DNA of 64,000 bases from an uncultured Bacteroidales bacterium (GTDB taxonomy: Bacteria; Bacteroidota; Bacteroidia; Bacteroidales; UBA932): contig ONEX01000010.1 in NCBI GenBank assembly GCA_900316955.1, forward strand, positions 1 through 64,000, written 5' to 3'. The notes beneath the pieces are model-generated. The model saw only the letters and a program-made list of their open reading frames with translations. It made no database searches and was not told the origin of the DNA. How positions within the stretch are numbered: the stretch's first letter is position 1; each line of letters opens with the position of its first letter. Positions 43,958-53,965 of this stretch are shown piece by piece. A program made the translations under genes and the position numbers.

Positions 43958-46270
<2,313 letters not shown>

Positions 46271-46279
46271 TTACACTTA

Positions 46280-46310
46280 CAAATATAGTCTTTTTGTATG
46301 AAAAACCAAA
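46280..46310 (-). promoter_or_regulatory. Promoter of the xylanase-esterase gene
   Basis: On the minus strand TTTG (46307-46310), 19 nt, then TATATTTG (46280-46287) match the consensus, 39 bp upstream of the start codon. Confidence 0.7.
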
Positions 46311-46338
46311 ACCCGAACTAAAAAAAACGTTTTTCGCG

Positions 46339-47571
46339 TTATTGCCAGCGCTTTTCGGCTTTTTCGACTTCGCGGCGGAGGGAGGCGGGGAGGTTGTCCA
46401 CGCAGCGGTTGCATTTCATTTCCAGGGTGTACATGCGGGCGATGCAGTAGTTGGAGTGGCCGCAGGCGCTGCAGGTGGCGGCTCCCGTGCGGAGCTTGTT
46501 GACGAAGTCGGTGTCGTGCACCAGGGCGCGGGCCATCTGGAGGCCCTGGAAGCCGGCGGCGAGCACTTCTTCCATCTTGGCGAGCGAGGTGAGGCCGCCC
46601 ACGTAGATGAGCGGCAGCCTGACCGCCTCGCGGAACTGCTTCGCATCCTCCAGGAAATAGCCTTCCCGGTAGGGGACGGTGGGGATGACCAGGCGGCCGG
46701 CCAGGTGCAGGAAGGCCTGCAGCCACCAGAACTTGCGCGTGTCCATGTAATAGGCCATCGTCCGGATGGGCATGGCCCCGCGCATCACTTCCATCGGCGC
46801 CTTGCTCACGAAGCCGGCGGACAGGACGAGCGCGTGCACGCCCAGCCGTTCCAGCTCCCGGGCGACCTCCAGGCATTCCGCCCGCTGCATTCCGCGCTTG
46901 AAGCCGTCGTGCATGTTCATCTTGACGACGACGCCCATGTCGTTTCCGGCGTGTTCCATCACCCGGCGGATGACCCGCTGCATGAACCGCATCCGGTTCT
47001 GCAGCGAGCCGCCGTACTCGTCGCGCCGGTGGTTCGTGTAGGGGGAGAGGAACTGGCTGATGAGGTAGCCGTGGCCGGCGTGGATCTCCACGCAGTCGAA
47101 ACCTGCCTCGCGGGCGAGGTCCACCGCCTTTCCGAAATCTTCCACCAGCGCATCGATCTCGGGGACCTTCAGCCCCCGGACGAAGGTCGGGGAATACAGG
47201 TTGAAGCCCGAGGACGCGCCCACGGGCATGCAGCCGCAGGTGGCCCGGTGCGTCATGTTGCCGCAGTGGCCCAGCTGGATGGAGCACTTGGCGCCTTCCG
47301 CATGGACGGCGTCAGTGATCCGCTTCAGGCCGGGAACGATCTCCGGCCGCATCCACAGCTGGCCGTCGAAGGACAGGCCGCTGCGGTTCACGGACGCGTA
47401 GGCGAGGGTGGTCATGCCCACGCCGCCCCGCGCCACGGCGACGTGGTAGTCATACAGGTCCTGCGACGGGGCGTTGCCGTAGGCCATGTTCTCGAAGGCC
47501 GCCGAACGGATCACCCGGTTGCGGAGGGTGACCGGGCCGATCGTGACGGGTGTGAAGACGGGAGAGTCCAT
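46339..47571 (-). CDS. Old Yellow Enzyme-family flavin oxidoreductase
   Basis: This 410-residue FMN barrel has SIQLGHCGNMT, EIHAGHGYLISQFLSPYTNH and DEYGGSLQNRMRF, all hallmarks of the family. The C-terminus carries a Cys cluster (CSACGHSNYC, then MKCNRC) as in Fe-S-containing BaiCD/2,4-dienoyl reductase-type members, but the NAD(P)-binding domain of those longer enzymes is absent. It would reduce an activated C=C bond. It lies 3 bp after a steroid-5-alpha-reductase-like gene, suggesting a joint pathway. Confidence 0.87.
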   Translation of the reverse strand: MDSPVFTPVTIGPVTLRNRVIRSAAFENMAYGNAPSQDLYDYHVAVARGGVGMTTLAYASVNRSGLSFDGQLWMRPEIVPGLKRITDAVHAEGAKCSIQLGHCGNMTHRATCGCMPVGASSGFNLYSPTFVRGLKVPEIDALVEDFGKAVDLAREAGFDCVEIHAGHGYLISQFLSPYTNHRRDEYGGSLQNRMRFMQRVIRRVMEHAGNDMGVVVKMNMHDGFKRGMQRAECLEVARELERLGVHALVLSAGFVSKAPMEVMRGAMPIRTMAYYMDTRKFWWLQAFLHLAGRLVIPTVPYREGYFLEDAKQFREAVRLPLIYVGGLTSLAKMEEVLAAGFQGLQMARALVHDTDFVNKLRTGAATCSACGHSNYCIARMYTLEMKCNRCVDNLPASLRREVEKAEKRWQ

Positions 47572-47574
47572 AGG

Positions 47575-48345
47575 TCAATAGATGAACGGGATGATGCGCT
47601 TGACTTTCCGGGTGTCCAGCTGCTCCGGGAATTCCCGGTTGTACAGGTCATAGATCCGGGCGGCCCGGGGCGCCAGGTTGGCGAAGGTCCACAGCGAGAA
47701 GACGGCGCCGGCCCAGGACCAGGTGAGGATGGCGAATCCGGTCCATTCCAGCCATTCCCCGAAGTAGTTGGCGCTGGTCACGTAGCGGAACAGGCCGCCC
47801 TGGGGCAGGTAATGGGCCGTGTCGCCCGGCTTGCGGAGGTTCCGGATGATCCCGTCGGACTGGATGTTGACATACATCCCCGCGAAGAAAAGCAGCGTTC
47901 CCGCGATGAAAGGCAGGCTGAGCAGCCAGGAGGCCGGATACCGGTCCGCGGGGGAGACATAGAAGATCCAGCCTCCCTGCATGAACGCGTTGAGCGTGTT
48001 GAACAGCGCGCCCATGATGACGATGGCCCAGGGCATGCGGTTGTGGCCGTGCATGTGCCGGGGAAAGACGAACGAGCGGTGGAAATAGTGGACCTCGAAC
48101 AGCGCGAGGAACACGAGCCGCACGAGATCCGTCCGCCGGTCGGAGAACCACCAAAGCGCCAGCATCGCGATGAACACCGGCGCCTCCATCAGGACCCACC
48201 CCACGTGGTTGTCCATGGAGGGGCCCCATCTGGGGTTGTAGAACTTGCCGTAGCCGGCGTCGATGAAGTACAGCCCCAGGAAGATGAAGACGGCCACGAT
48301 GGCCATCACGGCGAGGAAGATGTTGAACGTCGAGACGAGGCTCAT
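47575..48345 (-). CDS. Steroid 5-alpha-reductase-like membrane protein
   Basis: This 256-residue protein has about six membrane helices. The C-terminal domain shows SRD5A-family features: SANYFGEWLEWTGFAILTWS, AARIYDLYNREFP and the closing RKVKRIIPFIY. FVFPRHMHGHNRMP also fits. Enzymes of this family reduce the 4,5 double bond of 3-oxo steroids with NADPH. The partner OYE gene follows in the same operon and a CE1 esterase precedes it by 10 bp. The natural substrate is not shown by sequence. Confidence 0.85.
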   Translation of the reverse strand: MSLVSTFNIFLAVMAIVAVFIFLGLYFIDAGYGKFYNPRWGPSMDNHVGWVLMEAPVFIAMLALWWFSDRRTDLVRLVFLALFEVHYFHRSFVFPRHMHGHNRMPWAIVIMGALFNTLNAFMQGGWIFYVSPADRYPASWLLSLPFIAGTLLFFAGMYVNIQSDGIIRNLRKPGDTAHYLPQGGLFRYVTSANYFGEWLEWTGFAILTWSWAGAVFSLWTFANLAPRAARIYDLYNREFPEQLDTRKVKRIIPFIY

Positions 48346-48355
48346 GGCGCGCAGG

Positions 48356-49492
48356 CTACTTGAACAGCTTCTGCGCGAAGATGGTCAGGTAAATGCGCCA
48401 GTTGCGCCAGATGTGGCCGCCGTCGGACTCGTAGTACTCGCAGGGATAGCCGTGCTGGTCGCAGTAGTCCTTCAGGATGAGGGAGTTGCGCTTGACGCCG
48501 TCGTCCTTGCCGACGCCGATCCAGAAGAGCTTGGGCTTGGCGGCGAAGAGGGCGGCGAGCTCCGGATCGTTGTCCCCGCTGGGGACGGCGACGCCGGAGA
48601 ACTGGCCCACGTAGCCGAAGGTGCCGGGATAGCGGCGGGCGAGGCGGGAAGACTGGCGGCCGCCCATGGACAGGCCGGCGACGGCGCGGGAATAGCCGTC
48701 CTTCTTCACGCGGTAGTGCTTCTCGATGAACTTCATGACGTCCGGGAAGCTCTCCTCGATCTCGGCCGTGGAGTCGGAGCGGCTGTTCGCCATCGTGGGC
48801 TGGAACATGTTCACGGCGGCGCCCGGCGAGGCGCTGTTGAAGTACACACCGTTCGGCATCACGACGAGCATCGGCTGGGCCTTGCCCTCGGCGATGAGGT
48901 TGTCCATGATCTGGGCCGTGCGGCCGAGGTCGAGCCAGGCGTCCTCGTCGCCGCCGGAGCCGTGCAGGAGGTACAGCACCGGGTATTTCGCCTTGGGGCT
49001 GTCCTCGTAACCGGCCGGGGTGTACACGGACAGGCGGCGCTTCATGCCCAGGGTGGGGCTGTCGTACCAGACGTGGGACACGGTGCCGTGCGGAACGTCA
49101 TGGACCTCATAGTACCAGCCCTTGTCGCCCTTTTCGGCGCTGAGGGTGAAGATGTTGGTCCAGGTGGCGATGTCGCGGTTCTGGTAGATGTTGTTCGGGT
49201 CCATGGTCCGGACGCCGTCCACGATGAAGCTGTAGGAGTACAGCTCGCCGGTGAGCGGTTCCGTCGTGTAGGTCCACATCCCGTCGCGGCCCTCCTTCAT
49301 GTCCACGCGCCCGGGCAGGAAGTCGCCCTGGAGCTGCACGGTGACGGCCTTGGGGCCGCGGTAGCGGAAGGTGACCGTGTGGTCGGGGTTGATTTCGGGG
49401 GAGGTGATGCCCGAAGCCGGGCCCAGCGCCTGCTGGGCGGAGGCGGCGGCGCCCATGAGGAGCGCCGCTGCCAGGATGAGGGTTCGTTTCAT
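48356..49492 (-). CDS. CE1-type esterase with N-terminal CBM48-like domain
   Basis: This 378-residue secreted protein has a signal peptide (MKRTLILAAALLMGAAASAQ), a beta-sandwich (about 30-120, TVTFRYRGPKAVTVQLQGDF) and an alpha/beta hydrolase with LLHGSGGDEDAW, nucleophile Ser in AGLSMGGRQSS, and a His in SDGGHIWRNW. Relatives are feruloyl or acetyl-xylan esterases. It lies 4 bp after GH3 in one operon. Confidence 0.88.
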   Translation of the reverse strand: MKRTLILAAALLMGAAASAQQALGPASGITSPEINPDHTVTFRYRGPKAVTVQLQGDFLPGRVDMKEGRDGMWTYTTEPLTGELYSYSFIVDGVRTMDPNNIYQNRDIATWTNIFTLSAEKGDKGWYYEVHDVPHGTVSHVWYDSPTLGMKRRLSVYTPAGYEDSPKAKYPVLYLLHGSGGDEDAWLDLGRTAQIMDNLIAEGKAQPMLVVMPNGVYFNSASPGAAVNMFQPTMANSRSDSTAEIEESFPDVMKFIEKHYRVKKDGYSRAVAGLSMGGRQSSRLARRYPGTFGYVGQFSGVAVPSGDNDPELAALFAAKPKLFWIGVGKDDGVKRNSLILKDYCDQHGYPCEYYESDGGHIWRNWRIYLTIFAQKLFK

Positions 49493-49496
49493 ATCG

Positions 49497-51794
49497 TTAC
49501 TTCATTAAGAGCACGCGGTGGGCGGGCGTCTCCGCAGCGGCGGCCTCGGCGGTCGCGGTGCAGCGGATGTCGCGGGAAGAGGCGCCGAACAGGAAGGTGT
49601 AGGTGCCGGCGTCCACCTTCCAGGCGGAGGCTTCCTCGTCGAAGGAGGCGAGCTCGGAGGTCGGGAAGGTGAGGGTGAGCTCCTGGCTTTCGCCCGGGGC
49701 GAGTTCCTTGGTCTTGCCGTAGGCCTTGAGTTCCTTGACCGGCTTGTCCAGGGTGCCGGCCGGGGCGCTCACGTACAGCTGGACGGCTTCCTTGCCGGCC
49801 ACGGAGCCGGTGTTCTTGACGGTCACCTTCGCGGTGACGGTCGTGCCGTCGTTGGCGACAGCCGGGGCGCTGTACTCGAAGGTGGTGTAGCTGAGGCCGT
49901 AGCCGAACGGGTAGGAGACGGGGAGATTCTGCTTGTCGAACCAGCGGTATCCCACGTAGATGCCCTCTTCGTACCGGGTCACGTCCACGTCCTTCTGGCC
50001 GATGTCTTCGCGGCGGTTCGTGAAGTACACGCCGGTGTCGGAGTCGATCGGGAAGTTCGCGCTGGAAGCGTGGTCCATCAGGTTCACCGGGAAGGTCATC
50101 GGGAGCTTGCCGGACGGGCTCTTCGCGCCGGTGAGGATGTCGGTGACGGAGTTGCCGCCTTCCTGACCCGCCTGCCAGGCGAGGAGGACGGCGTCCGGAA
50201 CGTTCTTCCAGGAGGCGGTCTCGATGACGCCGCCGATGTTCAGCACGACGATGACCTTCTTGCCCTTCGCGTGGAAGGCGGCGGTCACCTTGTTCAGCAG
50301 TTCGCGCTCCTTGGGGGAGAGGACGAAGTCGGCGCTGGTGCGGTCGAAGAACTCGCCGGAGTTGCGGCCGAAGGTGATGATCGCGACGTCATTGGCCTTG
50401 GCGGAGGCGGCCAGCTCGGCGTTGCCGGGAACGAGCTCGGCCGGGCGCGGCGTGGGGTAGAAGGCGGAGAGGCCGTCGTCGGGCAGGCTGGCCTTGTAGG
50501 CGGCCGCCTCGTCGGCGATGTGCTTCAGGGTGGCTTCCTTGTTGCTTTCGTCCACGTTGAAGCCGGCGTTCTTGAGTCCGTCCAGGAGGGACACCGTGTA
50601 GGCGCGGTTCACGTTGCCTGAACCGGTGCCGCCGGCGATGAAGTCGAAGGAGGTGCAGCCGAACACGGCCACGTTCTTGACGTCCTTCAGGGGCAGGATG
50701 CCCTTGTTCTCGAGGAGGACCATGCCTTCCAGCGCGCTCTGGCGGGTGACGGCGGCATGGGCCTTCAGGTCAGGCTTGTTGGAGTAGGCGTACCCCTTGG
50801 CCTTCGGGCTGCGGGCGACGAGTTCCAGGCAGCGGCGGACGCAGACGTCGAGTTCGGCCTCGGAAAGGCTGCCGTCCTTGATGGCATTCAGGATCTGCTC
50901 GTACTGCAGGTCGGTGCCCGGCTGGAGCATGTCGTTGCCGGCGGCGATCTGCTCGGCGCCGTTGTCACCGCCGTACCAGTCGGTCATCACGAGGCCCTTG
51001 AAGCCCCATTCGTCGCGGAGGACGGTGGTCTGCAGGTCCTTGCTCTGGGAGGTGTAGGTGCCGTTGATCTTGTTGTAGGAGCTCATCACGGTCCAGGGAT
51101 CGGATTCCTTAACGGTGATCTCGAAGCCCTTGAGGTAGATCTCGCGCTGGGCGCGGGGGGAGATGACGGCGTTGTTGCCGGTGCGGTTCGTCTCCTGGTT
51201 GTTGTAGGCGAAGTGCTTGATGGAGGTGCCCACGTCGTTGCTCTGGACGCCGCGCACATAGGCGGCCGCGGTCTTGCCGGCGACCACCGGATCCTCGGAA
51301 TAGTACTCGAAGTTGCGGCCGTTCAGCGGGTTGCGGTGGATGTTCAGGGCCGGAGCGAGATAGACGTCGGCGCCGTACTCGTGGACCTCTTCACCCATGG
51401 CCTTGCCCACGTTCTCCACCAGTTCCTGGTTCCAGGTCGAGGCCAGGAGGGTGCCGATGGGGAAGTGCGTGCAGTAGTAGGTGTTCTCGTCGCCTTCGCG
51501 GGTCGGGTCGATGCGGAGGCCGGCGGGGCCGTCGGCGAGGACGATGGACGGGATGCCCAGCCGCTCGATGGGATAGGTGGTGCCGGCGGCGCCGGGGACG
51601 ATCTTCTTCGTGGCGCCCACGACGGCGGACTCGCCGTTCGCGCCGGCCATGCCGGTGCCGATGACGAAATGGACCTTCTCCTCGAGGGTCATGGCCTTGA
51701 GGACCTTGTCAATGGAGTCTTTTCCGAGCTGGGGCTCGCTCTTGCAGCCGGCGAGGGCCAGGACTGCGGCGCTGATGAGCATGATTTTCTTCAT
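49497..51794 (-). CDS. GH3 beta-glucosidase/xylosidase lipoprotein
   Basis: This 765-residue protein has a lipobox LAGC (Cys17). The GH3 N-terminal domain has LADGPAGLRIDP, KHFAYNNQE and nucleophile Asp272 in LVMTDWYGG; the C-terminal GH3 domain and a fibronectin III-like domain (about 650-750) follow. It would cleave beta-linked glucose or xylose from oligosaccharides or glycosides. It is the first gene of the GH3-CE1-5AR-OYE operon. Confidence 0.92.
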   Translation of the reverse strand: MKKIMLISAAVLALAGCKSEPQLGKDSIDKVLKAMTLEEKVHFVIGTGMAGANGESAVVGATKKIVPGAAGTTYPIERLGIPSIVLADGPAGLRIDPTREGDENTYYCTHFPIGTLLASTWNQELVENVGKAMGEEVHEYGADVYLAPALNIHRNPLNGRNFEYYSEDPVVAGKTAAAYVRGVQSNDVGTSIKHFAYNNQETNRTGNNAVISPRAQREIYLKGFEITVKESDPWTVMSSYNKINGTYTSQSKDLQTTVLRDEWGFKGLVMTDWYGGDNGAEQIAAGNDMLQPGTDLQYEQILNAIKDGSLSEAELDVCVRRCLELVARSPKAKGYAYSNKPDLKAHAAVTRQSALEGMVLLENKGILPLKDVKNVAVFGCTSFDFIAGGTGSGNVNRAYTVSLLDGLKNAGFNVDESNKEATLKHIADEAAAYKASLPDDGLSAFYPTPRPAELVPGNAELAASAKANDVAIITFGRNSGEFFDRTSADFVLSPKERELLNKVTAAFHAKGKKVIVVLNIGGVIETASWKNVPDAVLLAWQAGQEGGNSVTDILTGAKSPSGKLPMTFPVNLMDHASSANFPIDSDTGVYFTNRREDIGQKDVDVTRYEEGIYVGYRWFDKQNLPVSYPFGYGLSYTTFEYSAPAVANDGTTVTAKVTVKNTGSVAGKEAVQLYVSAPAGTLDKPVKELKAYGKTKELAPGESQELTLTFPTSELASFDEEASAWKVDAGTYTFLFGASSRDIRCTATAEAAAAETPAHRVLLMK

Positions 51795-51830: not shown

Positions 51831-51838
51831 CAAAGATA
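51831..51838 (-). promoter_or_regulatory. -7 element of the GH3 operon
   Basis: TATCTTTG on the minus strand, 37 bp upstream of the GH3 start. No clear -33 box at standard spacing. Confidence 0.5.
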
Positions 51839-51916
51839 CGGAGAATCTCGAAATCCTTTCTTATTTGCATGTTCAATTATTATTTCCGATGTTTGTATTT
51901 GGTAATTGATACAAAT

Positions 51917-53965
51917 ATGAAAAAGATCGCCACCCTCCTGACGGCCCTCGCCATCGTTCCGTTCCTGTGGGCCCAAAACCCGTATCTGCCGCTCTGGGAG
52001 CACCTTCCCGACGGAGAACCCCGTGTGTTCGAAGATCCCGACCAGCCGGGAAAGTACCGCGCGTACATCATCGGCTCCCATGACCTCACCTATACTGCGT
52101 ACTGCAGCGGCGACATCCGCATGTGGTCGGCCCCGGTGGAGGACCTGAGCCAGTGGCGGGACGAGGGAATCCTCTTCTCCTGGTTCGTGGACGGCCAGTG
52201 GGACACGATGTACGCGCCGGACCTCGTGGAGGTTCGGGACCGCGTCACGGGCAAGAAGACCTACTACCTGTACCCGCATTCCCGCGGGCGCGGAAGGGTG
52301 GCCACCGTGTGCAAGTCGGACCGCCCTGACGGTCCGTTCGTCCCGGTCAATGTCACCGAGGACGGCCGCGGTGTCCTGCCCGGCTCGCTCATCGACTTCG
52401 ACCCTTCGGTCTTCATCGAGACCATCACGGACAAGAAGGACAAGGACTACGGCATCGGCTTCCGCGCCTATGTCTATTACGGGTTCCAGCACTCGACGGC
52501 CTGCGAGCTGGACCAGAATACGATGTATTCCATGCGGCCCGGCACGGAGCTCCATGACTATTTCATCCCGGCCAGCTCCCAGTACGGCCAGGTCCGCGAT
52601 CCCGAAGGGACGCAGTACCCGGCGCTGTACAAGGGCCAGAACCCGGGCGACTTCAACTTCTTCGAGGCCTCCAGCATCCGCAAGGTGGGGAACAAGTACG
52701 TGATGGTGTTCTCCGGCTACAGCGGCCCGGATTACGGCCTCTCCTCCACGAACTCCGCGCTCCGCTACGCCTTCGGCGACTCGCCGCTCGGCCCGTGGCG
52801 CTCCGGCGGCGTGCTCGTGGACTCCCGCGGCGTCGTTCCCGACGAGAACGGCGAGCATCTGACCACCTCCAACGCCGCGCACAACACGCACGGCTCCCTG
52901 CAGGAGATCAACGGCCAGTGGTATGTGTTCTATCACCGCCCGCCGCGCGGCTTCGGCAACGCCCGCCAGTCGATGGTGGCGCCCGTGAAGATCGAATGGG
53001 ACGACAAGAAGGTGGCCGACGGAGGACAGCTCAGCATCACCGGCTACGACCCGTATGCGAAGGACGAAGCCTGGACGGCTTCCGCCGCGGACGGGACGGT
53101 CTATACCGGCGCCGAGGTCACGAGCGAGGGCTTCCAGGTCTTCGGCCTGCCTCCGTACGCCTACTATTCCGCCGGTTACGCCTGCTACCTGTCCGACCAG
53201 GACTGGATGCAGGACAACCACGACGTCTGGTGCAATGACATGGACGTGGCCGGTGTCACCAACGGCGGCATCGTGGGCTTCAAGTACTTCGGTTTCGGCG
53301 GCCTGGACAAGTGGAACAAGGGGGTGAACCCGTTCGTGGGAACCAAGAAAGGCGACGGCACGCAGCTGGACCTGTACCTGACGCCCGGCCGTCACGGCGC
53401 GTTCAAGATCCATGTGATGCTGGACGGTCCGTATGCCAATGCGACCTGGAAAGGCCGCGAGATCGCGGTGGTCGAGGTCCCGGACGGCAAGCGGGGTGAA
53501 CTCCTGCACCTGACGGTACCGGTCCCGGCCGTGGAAGGCCTCGCCGGCAAGCACGCCATCTTCCTGGTGGCGGAGGGCGCCGACATCCAGCGTCCGCAGA
53601 TGGACCCGCGCTTCGCCGCTTTCGCCGCGCGGAATCCCCGCCGTCCGGACGGCCTGTTCGACCTGCACGGCATCGGCTTCTCCAAGCCCGGCGCCCCCTG
53701 CGTCCGTCCGACCGTGCCGCAGGTGAAGATCTTTGCCGATGGGAAACAGCTGGCCGTTCCTACGACGCCCGTCCGCTTCACGAACGCGAACGGCATCATG
53801 GACCAGCTCCACTATCAGGTGTACGCGCCGCTCGAGGACGGTTCCGTCCTGCAGGTGAGCGCCTCCGATCCCGACGTCCGGATTTCCACCGGACCCGTCG
53901 TGAATGGCCGCGCCACCGTCAAATGCTCCTGGAAGGGGCTGGAGAAGATCTACTGGATCAACTAA
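51917..53965 (+). CDS. Secreted GH43-like glycoside hydrolase
   Basis: This 682-residue protein has a signal peptide (MKKIATLLTALAIVPFLWAQ). The five-bladed propeller has PRVFEDPDQPGKYRAYI near the N-terminus, TMYAPDLVEV, and NFFEASSIRKVGNKYVMVFS with a candidate acid Glu. A C-terminal beta region with GFQVFGLPPYAYYSAGYA and IHVMLDGPYAN resembles a carbohydrate-binding module. The likely activity is arabinofuranosidase or xylosidase. The start at 51917 is chosen for the signal peptide. It is convergent with the CoA ligase gene. Confidence 0.82.
   Translation: MKKIATLLTALAIVPFLWAQNPYLPLWEHLPDGEPRVFEDPDQPGKYRAYIIGSHDLTYTAYCSGDIRMWSAPVEDLSQWRDEGILFSWFVDGQWDTMYAPDLVEVRDRVTGKKTYYLYPHSRGRGRVATVCKSDRPDGPFVPVNVTEDGRGVLPGSLIDFDPSVFIETITDKKDKDYGIGFRAYVYYGFQHSTACELDQNTMYSMRPGTELHDYFIPASSQYGQVRDPEGTQYPALYKGQNPGDFNFFEASSIRKVGNKYVMVFSGYSGPDYGLSSTNSALRYAFGDSPLGPWRSGGVLVDSRGVVPDENGEHLTTSNAAHNTHGSLQEINGQWYVFYHRPPRGFGNARQSMVAPVKIEWDDKKVADGGQLSITGYDPYAKDEAWTASAADGTVYTGAEVTSEGFQVFGLPPYAYYSAGYACYLSDQDWMQDNHDVWCNDMDVAGVTNGGIVGFKYFGFGGLDKWNKGVNPFVGTKKGDGTQLDLYLTPGRHGAFKIHVMLDGPYANATWKGREIAVVEVPDGKRGELLHLTVPVPAVEGLAGKHAIFLVAEGADIQRPQMDPRFAAFAARNPRRPDGLFDLHGIGFSKPGAPCVRPTVPQVKIFADGKQLAVPTTPVRFTNANGIMDQLHYQVYAPLEDGSVLQVSASDPDVRISTGPVVNGRATVKCSWKGLEKIYWIN

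Follow-up and report, generated by a model that had tools for sequence, protein, structure and literature searches.

In the 64,000-nucleotide stretch of DNA analysed here (the window: positions 1 to 64,000 of contig ONEX01000010.1, assembly GCA_900316955.1, from an uncultured Bacteroidales bacterium), two adjacent genes on the minus strand encode an SRD5A-like membrane reductase, which is a proposed steroid 5alpha-reductase (5AR; 47575-48345, 256 amino acids (aa)), and a single-domain flavin reductase of the OYE family, its proposed 5beta-reductase (5BR) partner (46339-47571, 410 aa). Our favoured reading, to which we give a probability of roughly 0.65, is that the two genes are a relocated copy of a conserved Bacteroidales 5AR/5BR cassette and ride as a passenger in a xylan operon. 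What is specific to this lineage is the setting of the pair, a xylan operon with no dehydrogenases; the pair as such is known already.

Conservation of the gene pair

The family sample consisted of 199 genomes, with that of the window included. The SRD5A-like protein has a match in 83 of these and the OYE-like protein in 81, and wherever both are matched (75 genomes) the OYE gene is the downstream neighbour of SRD5A on the same strand (75/75). The median gap between the two matches in these 75 genomes is 22 bp, with about 640 bp in three of them (G125, G135 and G145); in G135 (locus L081), the only one of the three fetched at length, an extra 204-aa gene stands between. SRD5A occurs alone in eight and OYE alone in six of the 199 genomes, some of the matches being partial or remote. 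The pairing of the two genes is beyond chance. One OYE match (G138:C97:15335-16564) holds one internal TAA, perhaps through decay, an assembly error or an overrun of the match past a stop. Across the class, 395 sampled genomes gave SRD5A matches in 53 cases at 1e-10 and OYE matches in 125 at 1e-20; the OYE matches listed are mostly ordinary OYEs with about 30% identity.

The scan of named genomes covered the best 80 of 590 confirmed candidates, and the following numbers refer to that set. The stretches around these loci hold SRD5A in 67 cases and short-chain dehydrogenase (SDR) genes of two types, SDRb in 63 and SDRa in 27, while GH3, CE1 or GH10 genes (glycosidases and esterases of the kind that flank the pair in the window) were found in none of these stretches. 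Of the 13 loci without SRD5A, three end at a contig edge just before OYE, and six are the Parabacteroides records L106-L111, which have OYE-SDRa only. The same pair in the same order is present in records of Parabacteroides, Bacteroides, Phocaeicola and Odoribacter, and Parabacteroides massiliensis carries SRD5A-OYE-SDRb. Separately, OYE followed by SDRa with no SRD5A in the stretch was seen in L066-L070, L072 and L106-L111 (Parabacteroides and other families of the class). Pfam places SDRa and SDRb alike among the short-chain dehydrogenases, and neither has an NCBIfam model over its cut-off among the best 25 shown for each; by analogy with the published cluster discussed below, they would be hydroxysteroid dehydrogenases.

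Gene neighbourhoods were compared in a set of 141 rows (140 loci and the window), in which ten loci were chosen for CE1 and at least two genomes were entered twice (L064/L142 and L093/L150). The pair is present in 108 of these rows, and at least one SDR gene stands beside it in 89 of the 108, with records of Parabacteroides, Bacteroides, Phocaeicola and Odoribacter among these. GH3, CE1 and GH10 neighbours are found in 2/108 pair rows, namely the window and the closely related species G595. A 42%-identical CE1-like gene is also present in the SDR-linked row L210, on the opposite strand and beyond two SDR genes. Eleven SDR-less pairs (L073, L074, L076, L077, L080, L081, L096-L099 and L102) are accompanied by a glutamine-cyclotransferase-like gene in 11/11 cases and by a CTP-synthase-like gene upstream in 9/11, both genes being named by eye.

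The SRD5A tree was obtained by a quick search of 131 rows with supports from the Shimodaira-Hasegawa-like approximate likelihood-ratio test (SH-aLRT) only; deep placements in it are unsure owing to long branches such as those of HsSRD5A2 and PbSRD5A. The window protein falls on the pair-bearing Bacteroidales side of this tree and clusters with that of G595 (SH-aLRT 95) within a group of 22 rows (98). An SDR neighbour was found in 19 of the 20 other members of the group, and the remaining one ends inside OYE at a contig edge. The ratio of nonsynonymous to synonymous substitution rates (dN/dS) between the window and G595 is 0.167 for SRD5A and 0.111 for OYE, which shows that the pair is maintained.

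The SRD5A-like protein

The SRD5A-like protein matches the Pfam model Steroid_dh (PF02544) with E=1.2e-40, and its score of 139.4 bits exceeds the cut-off of 22.6. The closest solved structures are those of bacterial PbSRD5A (7c83, 7e-48) and human SRD5A2 (7bw1, 9e-38), and the alignment with both spans nearly the full length. Glu54 and Tyr87 correspond to human E57 and Y91, and seven of the eight NADPH-binding residues are identical, whereas the position of human Q56 is occupied by Met53 and that of H231 by Ile. The Q-E-Y signature, which reads 'QEY' in both PbSRD5A and human SRD5A2, is therefore incomplete, with E-Y alone kept. Comparison with characterised 5AR enzymes, which the original prediction had proposed as a check, thus bears out the homology and the E57/Y91 equivalents but departs from them at Q56.

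The alignment took in 132 relatives: 20 rows from distant Bacteroidia and 112 that are pair-type or near, with several repeat fetches among the latter. The equivalents of E57 and Y91 are kept in 132/132 of these as well as in the window, and of the other NADPH residues only N160, in two rows, and Y235, in one, show deviations. The H231 equivalent is lacking in the 112 near rows and retained in the 20 distant ones. In the passages cited of PMC7815742, H231A is given as the sole human SRD5A2 variant without a significant drop in activity.

The OYE-like protein

The OYE-like protein consists of the FMN barrel only (Oxidored_FMN, PF00724, E=2.8e-56), without a C-terminal FAD/NAD domain. It scores 197.9 bits against the BaiCD equivalog model, for which the cut-off is 825. 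The original prediction had seen here a 5AR next to an OYE of the BaiCD/5-beta-reductase type; the pair does match the 5AR and putative 5BR of gut Bacteroidales, but its OYE is not of the BaiCD type. With BaiCD and the ci2350-type steroid 5beta-reductases of Firmicutes, as far as they are described in the passages cited of PMC11722256, it shares the OYE/FMN barrel and the catalytic Tyr region, and it differs from them in having 410 aa, the FMN barrel alone and a tail with three conserved Cys and one His.

Residues H164, H167, Y169, C370, H372, C376 and C387 are invariant in 48 aligned sequences. The last four make up the tail motif C-x-H-x3-C-x10-C (C370-x-H372-x3-C376-x10-C387, residues 370-387), which is invariant in the same 48 sequences. 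The motif C-x2-C-x3-C-x11-C, which we take to be the usual iron-sulphur motif of long OYE-type flavoenzymes, is absent from the window protein, and its Cys/His tail may be what is left of the iron-sulphur site found in these longer relatives. The tail of the OYE in L068, from another family of the class, reads C-x2-C-x2-C-x10-C. The structure model has an OYE fold with a predicted local distance difference test score of 86.7, and its confidence is low at about residues 251-270 and in the Cys/His tail (371-390). The solved structures nearest in fold are those of generic OYEs and of naphthoyl-CoA reductase, so that the substrate cannot be inferred from the structure of the OYE. A steroid reading of the pair appears to be supported in kind.

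Gene neighbourhood and placement of the pair

The pair forms the downstream half of a row of four genes, GH3, CE1-type esterase, SRD5A-like and OYE-like, all on the minus strand and spaced by 4, 10 and 3 bp; coordinates of the open reading frames and Pfam matches here agree with the original prediction. The GH3 glycosidase (49497-51794, 765 aa) matches PF00933, PF01915 and PF14310 (GH3 N, GH3 C and Fn3-like) and has an N-terminus that appears lipoprotein-like by eye. Seven of its eight NCBIfam matches are to GH3 glycosidase models, all eight being under the cut-off. The second gene (48356-49492, 378 aa) encodes an esterase with an N-terminal domain (PF00756, E=5e-24), which we call CE1-type after what we take to be the CAZy label for PF00756 esterases. 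Its top NCBIfam match is a xylanase/feruloyl esterase model, far below the cut-off (146.6 against 1200), and the protein is likely to be a feruloyl esterase.

A fifth gene, which the original prediction had overlooked, starts 98 bp past OYE on the same strand (43958-46240) and encodes a GH10-CE1 bifunctional xylanase/feruloyl esterase (PF00331, E=1.2e-101, together with PF00756) that scores 1117.6 bits against NF041944, where the cut-off is 1200. The locus thus contains a feature of xylan/feruloyl loci, a GH10 xylanase and a feruloyl-esterase-type domain in one gene. On the plus strand, 51869-53965 encodes a secreted protein of 698 aa that is conserved in G595 and in the same-genus genome G654; it is called GH43-like, here and in the comparison of blocks below, as a label by eye, with zero Pfam matches at 0.001. 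Gut Bacteroidota xylanase/feruloyl-esterase loci of the NF041944 type likewise have GH3, CE1, GH10-CE1 and a GH43-like gene in one neighbourhood, to which the window adds two genes of steroid-reductase type, at the site of the predicted terminator of G654.

G654 carries the block AraC-ACS-GH43-like-GH3-CE1-GH10CE1-ABCF with 94-98% protein identity and without the pair, and its genome (rated 95% complete) gave zero SRD5A or OYE matches at E<=0.001. Behind the CE1 stop, the G654 sequence is predicted to fold into a hairpin (-31.6 kcal/mol, z -6.5) with a T-run, and the promoter region of GH10-CE1 comes next. In the window and in G595, about 79 bp of this sequence, with the strong predicted terminator hairpin, are missing and the pair is in their place (interval 46241-48355, minus strand, in the window), the left break lying exactly at the CE1 stop. 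The 46 bases behind the OYE of the window fold no better than shuffles. The GH3-CE1-GH10-CE1 block was seen in three species only (window, G595 and G654), and eight further loci of the genus (L198-L205) have CE1 relatives of 69-79% identity with no GH10-CE1 gene adjoining. We infer that the pair was inserted behind CE1 in the lineage of the window and G595, insertion being simpler than loss because a pair at this site is found nowhere else among the loci compared and because the pair nests among SDR-linked pairs. The arrangement looks like a recent transplant of a steroid cassette into a xylan locus, without its dehydrogenases, and the GH3 and CE1 neighbours would then be xylan enzymes that stand outside the steroid reaction. 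The pair is probably a passenger of a plant-fibre-type operon and not part of one steroid-conjugate pathway.

A transfer from another genus was considered on the grounds that the OYE is 88% identical to that of G052 (other genus) and 78-79% identical to that of G129 (same genus). It was dropped, as the same-genus genome G732 has an OYE of 85% and an SRD5A of 81% identity, and the quick tree joins the window to same-genus rows, the support at the open fork being 86.

Transcription signals

The motif TAnnTTTG, which we take to be the Bacteroidota-type -7 element, is over-represented in the window (26 matches against 9.7 expected). On the minus strand, the motif scan places one element, TATCTTTG, before GH3 (51831-51838) and another before GH10-CE1 (46280-46287), with no further match on this strand between 51831 and 46288. 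This suggests that GH3, CE1, SRD5A and OYE are likely to lie on a single predicted transcript, of which GH3 is the first gene, and that GH10-CE1 is apparently transcribed separately from its own promoter. The pair would then be transcribed from the GH3 promoter.

Discussion

In the passages cited of PMC10382948, the 5AR gene of Parabacteroides merdae clusters with genes for a predicted 3beta-hydroxysteroid dehydrogenase (3beta-HSDH) and an NADH:flavin oxidoreductase, and disruption of the 5AR blocked the formation of derivatives of allolithocholic acid (alloLCA). In the published scheme, a 5beta-reductase converts 3-oxo-lithocholic acid (3-oxo-LCA) to 3-oxo-Delta4-LCA, a 5alpha-reductase leads on to 3-oxo-alloLCA and the 3beta-HSDH to isoalloLCA, position 3 being served by the dehydrogenase. 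With this Bacteroidales cluster, as described in the passages cited of PMC10382948 and PMC10672800, the window shares the SRD5A-type 5alpha-reductase and the adjacent NADH:flavin oxidoreductase; it differs in that the pair has no dehydrogenase and sits between CE1 and GH10-CE1 genes of xylan type. By analogy, the OYE would work in both directions between the 3-oxo-5beta and the 3-oxo-Delta4 forms of a steroid or bile acid. The SRD5A-like membrane enzyme, which would depend on NADPH, would reduce the 3-oxo-Delta4 form to the flat 3-oxo-5alpha (allo) product, and the two together would flip the A/B ring junction. The pair in the window would thus provide the first two steps, and the third may come from an SDRa homologue encoded elsewhere in the genome or from other microbes. 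Among the papers listed by a literature search, none describes, by its title and the opening of its abstract, a 5alpha-reductase in a xylan or polysaccharide locus of Bacteroidales, which is not proof of absence.

Several points weigh against reading the pair as a relocated 5AR/5BR cassette. Met stands at the Q56 position in 132/132 aligned SRD5A relatives as well as in the window, so that the human-type site is only partly kept, and according to the passages cited of PMC7815742 the changes Q56A/L abolish the activity of human SRD5A2. Being present in all relatives, Met is not a defect specific to the window; either this lineage tolerates it or the enzyme has another substrate, and the first option is favoured by the disruption reported for P. 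merdae. The pair is linked to the P. merdae cluster itself indirectly, by way of P. massiliensis and other named relatives. The role of the flavin oxidoreductase as 5BR is termed a hypothesis in the passages cited of PMC10382948, and in the table cited from PMC12692668 the only entries with 5beta-reductase activity are H. hathewayi and Lachnospiraceae. Neither SDR nor xylan genes are near the pair in 17 of the 108 pair rows. The genome of the window has no close homologue of SDRb (best 34%, E=1.8e-6), and its only close homologue of SDRa, 57% identical, is on another contig (C12). The genes around the latter were checked for remains of an old cluster, and SDRa is the only cluster-type protein among them, the surroundings being SusC/D-type, umuC-type and housekeeping genes by eye. 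As there is also no SDR gene beside the pair in the window or in G595, the 3beta-HSDH of the published cluster is missing from the locus, which is not a complete 5AR/5BR/3beta-HSDH cluster. The choloylglycine-hydrolase-like protein of the genome scores 36.1 bits, where the cut-off for bile salt hydrolase is 350. A sigma-70-type scan gave a promoter-like match (47618-47591) and a terminator-like match (48307-48289) inside the four-gene unit; the scan is ill-suited to these organisms, and its totals (2 and 10) differ little from what shuffles gave (1.1 and 6.4). Finally, loss of the pair in G654 is formally a possibility, because the nucleotide identities of six genes among the window, G595 and G654 (91-97%) disagree on which two are sisters.

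A bile salt hydrolase was also sought in the genome of the window and the candidate was rejected. The lone CBAH-family match (G000:C28, L225:7588-8739) is a C45/AAT-type acyltransferase/hydrolase; it fits the Pfam model for choloylglycine hydrolase as well, but by NCBIfam it is not a bile salt hydrolase.

It is possible, and in our view rather unlikely, that the pair is a genuine steroid 5alpha/5beta module acting on something other than bile acids, such as sex steroids, stenones from plants or animals, or a terpenoid of internal origin. The substrate is unreadable from sequence, and PbSRD5A responded mainly to progesterone in the passages cited of PMC7815742. The 17 pairs without dehydrogenase neighbours are consistent with such a module, and the plant-fibre operon around the pair suggests a plant-derived input. 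One relative, L170, moreover carries the isolate label 'ADurb', which presumably denotes anaerobic digester material. On the other side, the gene disruption in P. merdae ties the Bacteroidales cluster to bile acids (passages cited of PMC10382948), and in the set of 80 named relatives many of the record titles point to gut sources or gut genera. In the rumen, allocholic acid was among the bile acids raised after the addition of bile acids according to the passages cited of PMC11193847; 5AR is not mentioned in the bile-acid passages of this study or in those of the chicken study PMC12575232.

OYE-family enzymes reduce many activated double bonds, and the pair is flanked by two genes with CE1-type domains. 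The OYE could thus be a hydroxycinnamate-type reductase that disposes of ferulate freed by these domains, with the SRD5A-like protein as a bystander, which we regard as improbable: of the 108 pair rows, only those of the two sister species and L210 have a CE1-like gene in the vicinity of the pair, and OYE adjoins SRD5A in each of the 75 family genomes that have both. Least credible is the single pathway put forward in the original prediction, in which a steroid or terpenoid conjugate would lose its sugars to GH3 and its acyl groups to CE1 before the reductases act on its ring, since its arrangement, for all its close spacing, its one TAnnTTTG element ahead and dN/dS values of 0.11-0.18 for GH3, CE1 and the pair between the window and G595, is confined to these two close species, whereas the complete GH3-CE1-GH10 block persists in G654, whose genome matches neither SRD5A nor OYE, the pair lies beside different genes in other genomes, and the adjoining GH10-CE1 points to feruloylated xylan.

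If the pair is a relocated cassette, the replacement of the terminator may have put ring flattening under a plant-fibre promoter, and flat (allo) steroids may then be made in response to dietary xylan; we offer this extension tentatively and with more doubt than confidence. Allo bile acids such as isoalloLCA are described as inhibiting Gram-positive pathogens including C. difficile (passages cited of PMC10382948) and as promoting the development of regulatory T cells (passages cited of PMC12697870). The locus also cautions against inferring a pathway from gene adjacency alone, as the close sister genome G654 has the full glycosidase-esterase block without the reductases. If the cassette has indeed been rewired to a fibre-responsive promoter, this would be a direct genetic coupling of fibre sensing with steroid chemistry, and diet could control allo steroid chemistry in some gut Bacteroidales.

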